Of a stretch of 64,000 bases of DNA, positions 13,638-27,371 are shown piece by piece (position 1 is the stretch's first letter; the number at the start of each line of letters is the position of its first letter). This DNA is from Latilactobacillus sakei. GTDB lineage: Bacteria > Bacillota > Bacilli > Lactobacillales > Lactobacillaceae. The stretch spans positions 1,922,001 through 1,986,000 of the forward strand of contig CP025839.1 in NCBI GenBank assembly GCA_002953655.1, given 5' to 3'. The notes below the pieces were generated by a model. That model did not search any database, was not told where the DNA came from, and was given only the letters and a program-made list of their open reading frames with translations. Made by a program: the position numbers and the translations under genes.

Positions 13638-13675
13638 AAAAAACACCGTCAATTTAAAATTGGCGGTGTTTTTTT
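13638..13675. terminator. Bidirectional terminator after rsgA
   Basis: AACACCG...CGGTGTT arms with an extended stem (one G-U), 3-nt loop, and A6 before / T7 after. It can end rsgA rightward and the candidate RNA leftward. Confidence 0.85.
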
Positions 13676-14010
13676 ATTTAAGTATTATCGACGAAAAAAT
13701 GTTATGCCAGGGCGGTGGCAATCGAGTTAGTAGGAATTGAACCTACATCAACCATCTTAAATACATCAGCTCATTTCCATTGTGCCACTTTAATTGTGCC
13801 TTCGAAAGCAATTAAATACGGCCAGACAAACAGATCATAAGTGATATGTTTTGATTTTCTTGGGAGGAATTTCAAATGATGGTCCGTTCTACCGATTGAA
13901 CTATAACTCATTGGTGTTGCTTGCGATAGCTAATTCTTTCTAGGGAGAGCTACCACACAAAATTAACAAAATCAGATGATTCTTGGGAGGAATTTATCTG
14001 ATGTATAAAG
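13640..14010 (-). ncRNA. Candidate non-coding RNA with tRNA-like body and C-rich hairpin loops
   Basis: The 540-nt gap between rsgA and fusA holds no credible protein gene. On the minus strand the order is: hairpin I (14002-13971, ATCAGAT/ATCTGAT stem); hairpin II (13952-13927, TAGCT/AGCTA stem); a tRNA-like fold (13910-13723) containing hairpin III (13876-13850, TTTGA/TCAAA stem); hairpin IV (13720-13705, TGCCA/TGGCA stem); then the bidirectional terminator. Loops I and III share AATTCCTCCCAAGA, loop II has CTCCC and loop IV CCGCCC, all complementary to Shine-Dalgarno sequences. The stems of I and III differ in sequence but keep pairing. A regulatory RNA is inferred; transcript ends are unmapped. 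Confidence 0.55.
13723..13910 (-). ncRNA. tRNA-like fold with about 125 nt in place of the anticodon loop
   Basis: Starting at 13910: acceptor TGAGTTA pairs with TAACTCG (13729-13723, one G-U); then TA; D-stem GTTC/GAAC with loop AATCGGTA; anticodon stem GACCA (13884-13880) pairs with TGGTT (13754-13750); T-stem GTAGG/CCTAC with loop TTCAATT. All stems are in tRNA order and size. The anticodon loop is replaced by 13879-13755, which holds the C-rich hairpin III and an 8-bp hairpin TTTAATTG/CAATTAAA. No CCA is encoded. D- and T-arms recall tRNA-Trp of this group. It cannot decode as it stands. Confidence 0.7.
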
Positions 14011-14018
14011 AATAACAA

Positions 14019-14085
14019 TTAGTTGTGAACAAAATGTGAACATTCAATTATGAAACTGTAAAAGAATGACATCGCTCACAACTAA
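14019..14085. promoter_or_regulatory. Possible operator region upstream of the candidate RNA
   Basis: A 10-bp perfect inverted repeat TTAGTTGTGA (14019-14028) / TCACAACTAA (14076-14085) flanks two direct repeats of TGTGAAC (14024-14030 and 14035-14041), spaced 11 bp. A weak minus-strand promoter (TTGTTC, 18-bp spacer, TTATAC) lies in the same stretch. The repeats look like a protein-binding site for the RNA promoter; the regulator is unknown. Confidence 0.35.
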
Positions 14086-26486: not shown

Positions 26487-27371
26487 ATGAAAAGAATAAG
26501 TACTGCATTACTATCAATCGGCGCTATCGCCCTCTTACTAGCGGGGTGTCAAGGCAAACAAGCAAATCAGGGTGAATCCAAAGAACAGTCGGCTAAAATC
26601 ACAGCGGTTGGCTCAACAGCACTCCAACCCCTCGTTGAACAAGCTGGCGCAACCTATCAAACAAAACACGCCGGGATCGATATCACCGTTCAAGGTGGCG
26701 GCTCCGGGACCGGTCTGGCACAAGTCAGCGACGGCAGCGTCACAATCGGCAACTCAGACATCTTTGCCGAAGAAAAAGCCGGCATCAACGCTAAGCAGCT
26801 CGTTGATCACAAAGTCGCAGTCGTCGCAATTGCCCCCGTCGTGAACGAAAAACTCGGTATCAAATCATTAACCCAGGCACAACTAAAAGACATCTTTACT
26901 GGTAAAATTAAGAACTGGCACGCAGTTGGCGGCCCTGACCAATCAATTACCGTCGTTAACCGCGCACAAGGTAGCGGCACACGCCAAACTTTCGAAAATC
27001 TCGGTCTGAAAACGAATAAAGTCATGACCAGCCAAGAACAAGATTCATCGGGCACTGTTCAAAAAATCGTGCGCCAAACTCCGGGGGCCATTAGTTACCT
27101 CGCCTTTCCTTATATTAAGGATGGTTTGAAAGCTGTCGCACTTAATAAGGTTCAACCAACCACTAAAAACGTCCTCACCAACCAATGGCCTATCTGGTCT
27201 TACGAACATGCTTATACGAAGGGGGCGCCTAATTACCAAACCGCTAAATTTATTAATTACCTTCAATCTAAAGACGTGCAAAAAACACTTGTGCCAAAAC
27301 TCGGTTACATCCCAATGACGCAAATGAAAGTGGAACGGCATGCTGATGGCAGCATCCAAGACGTTAAATAA
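26487..27371 (+). CDS. pstS: PstS-type phosphate-binding lipoprotein
   Basis: Surface lipoprotein that delivers phosphate to the PstCAB ABC transporter. The 294-residue precursor has a signal peptide ending in the lipobox LLAGC (C21) and a periplasmic-binding fold. The phosphate-binding segments are AVGSTALQPLVEQ, GGGSGTGLAQV and AQGSGTRQTF. Length is normal. No permease or ATPase genes follow; a terminator comes 10 nt after the stop, so it is a stand-alone binding protein, possibly a second copy. A Pho-box-like array lies upstream. Confidence 0.9.
   Translation: MKRISTALLSIGAIALLLAGCQGKQANQGESKEQSAKITAVGSTALQPLVEQAGATYQTKHAGIDITVQGGGSGTGLAQVSDGSVTIGNSDIFAEEKAGINAKQLVDHKVAVVAIAPVVNEKLGIKSLTQAQLKDIFTGKIKNWHAVGGPDQSITVVNRAQGSGTRQTFENLGLKTNKVMTSQEQDSSGTVQKIVRQTPGAISYLAFPYIKDGLKAVALNKVQPTTKNVLTNQWPIWSYEHAYTKGAPNYQTAKFINYLQSKDVQKTLVPKLGYIPMTQMKVERHADGSIQDVK

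Follow-up and report, generated by a model that had tools for sequence, protein, structure and literature searches.

The csRNAs of streptococci, which belong to the CiaRH regulon, occur in several copies per genome and are preceded by direct repeats, spaced by 5 nt, just before the −10 element (excerpts of PMC3091779). LhrC of Listeria is also multi-copy, and is described as binding, through several CU-rich sites, the ribosome site of a surface-protein mRNA (lapB) and of other mRNAs, under control of the two-component system LisRK (excerpts of PMC4132741 and PMC8383071); a LisR consensus was not known to the authors of PMC4132741. RNAIII and RsaE of Staphylococcus block translation through base-pairing of a C-rich loop motif to the ribosome-binding site (PMC8383071, in part). 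The csc/WxL surface proteins of L. plantarum are reportedly under catabolite control (PMC1534035, in part), and a search of the open-access literature for a link between WxL genes and small RNAs led to PMC5593968, which in its excerpted text lists a WxL gene only as changed in expression.

We analysed a 64,000-nt stretch of the Latilactobacillus sakei genome (contig CP025839.1; hereafter, the window), in which the minus strand of positions 13640–14010, between rsgA and fusA, carries a candidate regulatory RNA. We consider it about 70% probable, taking the reading as a whole, that the minus strand encodes a small RNA of ~364 nt, starting near 14003 and ending at about 13640, which is a member of a multi-copy family of trans-acting antisense RNAs of Latilactobacillus and likely represses csc/WxL translation. 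Folding recovered all four minus-strand hairpins of the original prediction in their places with C-rich loops, including the CTCCC and CCGCCC expected in loops II and IV (Table 1). The AATTCCTCCCAAGA reported as the shared loop of hairpins I and III does occur twice; as a 14-nt loop it is partly paired, given that an inner UUC/GAA helix in both predicted folds closes a 7-nt apical loop, CUCCCAA. Because this helix pairs part of the C-rich core, a hairpin test that demanded a wholly unpaired core was too strict, and plain folds were used instead. The 364 nt of 14003–13640 fold with a minimum free energy of −85.8 kcal/mol, below all of 100 dinucleotide shuffles (mean, −69.8; z, −2.99). Hairpins I and III had also been offered as a case of pairing kept while the sequence changes; they are two different hairpins, so that their comparison is no test of covariation, and such changes are instead seen across species in hairpins II and III, hairpin II of the sister units being retained despite different stems. 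The terminator thought to close the unit jointly with rsgA is bidirectional at this locus; it is no fixed part of the family, because three of the other five genomes have some other gene there in place of rsgA. None of the Rfam families reached its gathering score in 13640–14010, in agreement with the earlier statement that no named family with this layout is known, and the sub-threshold matches, nearly all of which span the terminator hairpin, look like chance. Elsewhere in the window, the minus strand of 25862–25921 matches the Rfam Lacto-rpoB element (44 bits; cut-off, 40).

Table 1. Features of the candidate RNA gene and its promoter, in window positions.
Feature	Position	Strand	Description
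Direct-repeat boxes	14024..14062	−	TTCACA at 14040-14035 and TTCACA at 14029-14024, 5 nt apart
Far box	14062-14057	−	TTTACA, 22 nt further up; present in 5 of 17 units
Extended −10	14009..14017	−	TGTTATTCT; follows the second box by 9 nt, with transcription predicted to start near 14003
Hairpin I	13971..14002	−	Stem AUCAGAU/AUCUGAU; loop region AATTCCTCCCAAGA; predicted 5′ end (fold)
Hairpin II	about 13925..13954	−	Stem GGUAGCU/AGCUAUC; CTCTCCC in loop region (fold)
tRNA-Trp-like cloverleaf with insert	13722..13910	−	Between hairpins II and IV (fold, ARAGORN, covariation)
Acceptor stem	13910-13904 / 13729-13723	−	
D arm	13901-13886	−	
Anticodon-stem arms	13884-13878 / 13756-13750	−	
Antisense segment	13862..13879	−	18-nt exact match to GGGAGGAATTTCAAATGA, SD to AUG of WxL genes G000:C1:170551 and 181460
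Hairpin III	13850..13876	−	Stem UUUGA/UCAAA; within the anticodon-loop insert (fold)
T arm	13746-13730	−	
Discriminator A	13722	−	
Hairpin IV	13705..13720	−	UGCCA[CCGCCC]UGGCA, loop CCGCCC; T-run a few bases further on
Terminator hairpin and T-run	13640..13677	−	Bidirectional, also serving rsgA (basis includes fold)

The unconstrained minimum-energy fold yields a cloverleaf between hairpins II and IV, and ARAGORN, with introns allowed, places at 13910–13722 a tRNA whose anticodon loop holds an insert of 116 nt, hairpin III included. Anticodon-loop inserts of differing lengths are present in all 13 cloverleaf units recovered, and the seven-base loop with its anticodon is absent. A MAFFT alignment of the 13 bodies (six genomes, decayed unit L043 included; a hand-made pair table covered 11 of the 13) gave 97.3% pairing over 20 pairs and 259 cells. 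Eight pairs are altered on both sides, with such changes in the acceptor, D, anticodon and T stems (for example, acceptor pair 3 as A-U or C-G, D-stem pair 13-22 as U-A, C-G or U-G, and T-stem pairs 2 and 3). For four of the five measures, no shuffle out of 500 matched the cloverleaf; for the fifth, further pair types, it scored no higher than shuffles (132/500). Moving the partners by 1 to 3 columns lowered pairing to 26–48%, a control that favours the cloverleaf because the structure was drawn from those same sequences. Of five sister loci scanned with the Rfam tRNA model, three (L033, L035 and L042) reached its gathering score; L036, L040 and the body in the window fell below it. ARAGORN with introns missed several units and named meaningless 'anticodons'. 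Within the insert, TTTYGAAGGC (13807–13798 in the window, minus strand) is kept in 8 of the 13 units.

Comparison with real tRNAs indicates, on the basis of sequence and covariation, that the body is related to tRNA-Trp. A covariance model of the 13 bodies, run with stricter filters against 397 Lactobacillaceae genomes sampled from a larger group, scored its training units at 102.6–163.7 bits and its next matches at ≤52.2 bits; all 14 of the next-best matches for which loci are given (L150–L163) are tRNA-Trp genes. Conversely, tRNA-Trp was the best-scoring tRNA, and thus the closest real one, for each of the six bodies compared (of 13), narrowly so in G003b. The body differs from tRNA-Trp in carrying the hairpin III insert in place of the anticodon, in having A rather than G at position 73 and in opening the acceptor stem with U-G rather than A-U. 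Both the anticodon and position 73 have a role in tryptophan charging; with the one absent and A at the other, charging of this RNA is unlikely. A tRNA-like part within a larger RNA is also found in tmRNA, and tmRNA was rejected: ARAGORN (-m) found none, and there was no Rfam tmRNA match in the window.

The family appears to be confined to the genus among the genomes searched. Strong DNA matches were found in all six Latilactobacillus genomes (G000, analysed here; G001, L. fragifolii; G002, probably L. curvatus; G003, L. fuchuensis; G004, L. graminis; and G005) among 60 relatives, and the other 54 gave no match except for a weak one in G036 at the terminator end of the query. The covariance-model search, built on Latilactobacillus genomes as the original prediction had suggested, placed all 13 cloverleaf units, among the 397 Lactobacillaceae genomes, in the same six. 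Counting units by their promoter gives 17, of which 13 have the cloverleaf. The position after fusA (locus 1) is occupied in all six genomes; locus 2, flanked by genes for an LPXTG-type surface protein and an NAD(P)H-binding protein, in five, with a related neighbourhood in the sixth; and locus 3 in two. Three of these neighbours were identified through Pfam, and those we take to be fusA and rsgA carry the names given in the original prediction. In this genome, locus 2 comprises a unit that lacks the cloverleaf and a deletion derivative, whose intact counterpart is present in G005. In the derivative (second unit of L031, at about 6129; G000:C1 about 614.1 kb), loop I abuts loop III, the cloverleaf having lost its 5′ half. 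The original prediction had named homologues that keep neither stems nor C-rich loops as the outcome that would speak against it, and on this point the comparison came out in favour of the RNA. A phage origin was rejected, as no phage match was found; so was a plasmid origin, the single plasmid-set record being a 592-kb one of L. curvatus in which the match is surrounded by ordinary genes of metabolism and transport. The exact pattern TTGAAATTCCTCCCWAGAA occurs at 11 loci in genome contigs, six in Latilactobacillus and five in unrelated organisms; after viewing all five contexts we took the latter for chance, and at the Enterococcus lemanii site the other strand is a likely gene start (TTG and a long open frame).

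All 17 units share one promoter layout with constant spacing: a box, 5 nt, a second box, 9 nt and a −10 element with TG one base before it. The first box is TTCAYA in 14 units and GTCACA in 3, the second TTCAYA in 16 and GTCCCA in 1, and the −10 is TATTCT in 16; the start near 14003 follows from this spacing. The units had been selected in part on a fuzzy pattern for the −10 and hairpin I (24 matches, of which 7 elsewhere were dropped and 17 kept), so that it is the boxes that are independent of the selection. The strict box pattern has 13 occurrences across the six genomes, against 1 for the reversed control; 7 precede units of this family and 6, one per genome, a second conserved RNA. A looser pattern added one site in this genome, upstream of a protein-coding gene (L047) for which Pfam gave no match. 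Two pst promoters of the same genome have a similar layout, TTTACA-N5-TTTACA and TTTACA-N9-TATACT, and the boxes of the RNA have C for T at position 3. One PstS-type phosphate-binding protein gene lies in the window itself (26487–27317), with TTTACA-type repeats upstream, the last 9 nt before TATACT. We take these pst repeats to be PhoP boxes. The two-box layout, shared in kind by the pst promoters, points to a regulator of the OmpR family, with PhoP as one candidate.

The second conserved RNA (L044, about 1260–1530; G000:C1 about 22893–22620, minus strand; also L213, L216, L217, L218 and L219) occurs once in each of the six genomes, shares the two-box promoter and, like the first RNA, forms hairpins with C-rich loops. 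The block CTTTTTCATTTTACTCCTCCAAAG within it is antisense to SD-ATG-AAA-AAG, the antisense reading CTTTGGAGGAGTAAAATGAAAAAG, from the SD to the AUG and two codons. DNA matches were found in 19 of 60 relatives, the 13 outside the genus having short stretches only. Outside the genus, G051 and G057, from another family, have five copies of the block each (L233, L234, L240, L241, L242 and L235–L238); these copies give weak, sub-threshold Rfam Ref84 matches (40–41 bits; cut-off, 52), and several, judged by eye, have a box-N5-TTCACA-N9-(−10) promoter. The 22-mer CTTTGGAGGAGTAAAATGAAAAAG has no match at a gene start within two mismatches in the six genomes, and long start matches are therefore not automatic for RNAs of this kind.

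Hairpin III, in contrast, is antisense over 18 exact nucleotides to the starts of two WxL genes of this genome (170551 and 181460) and over 12–13 nt to three other WxL starts beginning MKF; 12-nt matches also lie at the csc gene start 175619 and at the non-WxL start 2016121. Pfam gave 29 WxL matches in this genome, and the paralogous WxL genes beginning MKF have a common start region like agggaggaatttcNNATGAAATTC. The 14-nt TCTTGGGAGGAATT has four exact sites in this genome, all within RNA genes, and two one-mismatch sites, both spanning SD to ATG of WxL genes; target prediction with the loop motif, also suggested in the original prediction, thus led outside the RNA genes to WxL starts. Once two mismatches are allowed the search is at chance level (21 sites, 15 of them with two mismatches; reversed control, 16). 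Across the six genomes, the 10-nt core GGGAGGAATT has 61 sites (reversed control, 24): 29 in RNA genes, 17 at MKF/VKF WxL starts, 1 at a csc-cluster LPXTG-type gene (1578997), 8 at other starts and 6 elsewhere. A search for MKF-type starts returned 17 sites, of which 14 were read as MKF/VKF WxL starts and 2 as RNA hairpins, the other site being L126. Predicted duplex energies with hairpin III averaged −27.9 for 5 MKF starts, −14.0 for 24 other WxL starts and −11.1 for 173 other starts; as it was complementarity that had led to these genes, the test is partly circular. The 202 starts came from a simple caller of our own applied mostly to stretches chosen for WxL genes and to the window, with one gene in an overlap counted twice. 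Hairpin II of the window showed no preference for MKF starts (p = 0.13), and hairpin II of G005 locus 2 is antisense to GGAGGAATGTCTAATGAAATTCA, covering the start codon and the next codons of these WxL genes. Promoter, synteny, covariation and the long antisense to gene starts thus give good support to the earlier proposal of a trans-acting RNA that pairs with Shine–Dalgarno sequences. Its extension to 'possibly many mRNAs' needs narrowing, as the longest matches fall in one family of WxL cell-surface genes. The original prediction included neither the pairing to start codons nor the tRNA-like body, the other copies and the two-box promoter.

How narrow the target set is bears on whether the RNA might instead be a general anti-Shine–Dalgarno RNA, whose C-rich loops weakly pair with many mRNAs and for which WxL is merely the strongest match. 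This would suit the three or more C-rich loops per unit, the lack of a long match for hairpins I, II and IV, and the ordinary gene starts that make up 8 of the 14 core sites lying outside both RNA genes and csc/WxL starts. It would also suit the L. curvatus-like genome G002, where three cloverleaf units persist although just three WxL matches, and no start of MKF type, were found, one WxL gene having the shorter ggaggaatt. Either targets were lost in G002 or the RNA has other targets, and this genome counts against an exclusive WxL role. Against a general RNA stand the 18-nt match through the AUG, the complement of a start codon in hairpin II of G005 and the share of csc/WxL starts, 18 of the 32 core sites outside RNA genes; we regard this explanation as rather unlikely, while giving it some weight.

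The remaining explanations deny the minus-strand RNA a function, and both seem highly improbable. If the plus strand were what matters, GGGAGGAATTT followed by ATG would be real ribosome-binding sites of tiny open frames; GGGAG is indeed present in each of the three CCTCCC/CTCCC hairpins, two of them with ATG at a usable distance. The frames, however, end after a few codons (MYKE and MMVRSTD here; MKFTFVR and MKFMFVR in L129 and L130), and the conserved promoter and the tRNA fold are on the minus strand; these mini-frames were rejected as short and dissimilar. The locus might also be a decayed, functionless tRNA-Trp gene split by an insertion, as the L043 unit and the second unit of L031 do look decayed. 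Against this, the same locus is retained in six genomes, the promoters are retained, and pairs in all four stems have changed on both sides; it is because of this covariation that decay is disfavoured.

Returning to the antisense RNA as the preferred reading, the complementarity of hairpin III to surface-gene starts suggests that the RNA probably switches those genes off. Starting from the observed complementarity, structure, promoter pattern and conservation of the RNA, we propose that, under some nutrient or envelope stress, a two-component system would induce transcription, its OmpR/PhoP-type response regulator probably acting through TTCACA-N5-TTCACA, which would stand in for a −35 element. 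The C-rich loops, chiefly that of hairpin III, would then initiate pairing at GGGAG and extend it through the AUG, covering csc/WxL mRNAs from the SD to the start codon and keeping ribosomes off. The cloverleaf probably stabilizes the RNA or lets tRNA-processing enzymes excise it, presenting hairpin III; the simplest idea combines stability with cleavage at 13911/13910 and 13722, by RNase P and RNase Z. More tentatively, the RNA could be a reprogrammed tRNA, a relative of tRNA-Trp in which the anticodon gave way to an antisense hairpin, so that a whole gene start, SD to AUG, is read rather than a codon. Cut by RNase P and RNase Z and perhaps carrying CCA, it would be a stable RNA that, under two-component control, represses translation of surface proteins. 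In the open-access literature searched, we found no account of a tRNA fold that carries an antisense hairpin where its anticodon would be. If the preferred reading is true, a tRNA would have been turned into an antisense regulator.

LhrC is a family held by Rfam, and the window gave no Rfam LhrC match, sub-threshold scan included; nor does TTTAAG-N5-TTTAAG precede the −10 in any of the 17 promoters, which have TTCAYA/GTCACA-type boxes with N5 and then N9. Since both the CiaR box and an LhrC match are absent, we do not file the RNA under csRNAs or LhrC. The likeness to csRNAs is nevertheless close: both are multi-copy, have N5 direct repeats before the −10 and are complementary to SD and AUG, here by way of hairpin III. 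They differ in the repeats (TTTAAG for CiaR, TTCAYA here), in the anti-start sequences, which are unpaired in csRNAs and lie in hairpin loops here, and in the tRNA-like body, which the excerpts of PMC3091779 do not describe for csRNAs. With LhrC the RNA would share several copies, CU-rich sites directed against ribosome sites of surface-protein mRNAs and two-component control, the last deduced here from the promoter; the targets differ, and excerpts of PMC4132741 and PMC8383071 describe no cloverleaf for LhrC. RNAIII and RsaE resemble it in setting a C-rich loop motif against the ribosome-binding site (PMC8383071, in part), and no relation in sequence was found (no Rfam match). By analogy, then, the mode of action of the RNA is probably that of csRNAs and LhrC, and for its body no counterpart was found among described families; if so, lactobacilli would possess a csRNA/LhrC-like circuit whose target family is the csc/WxL surface proteins.
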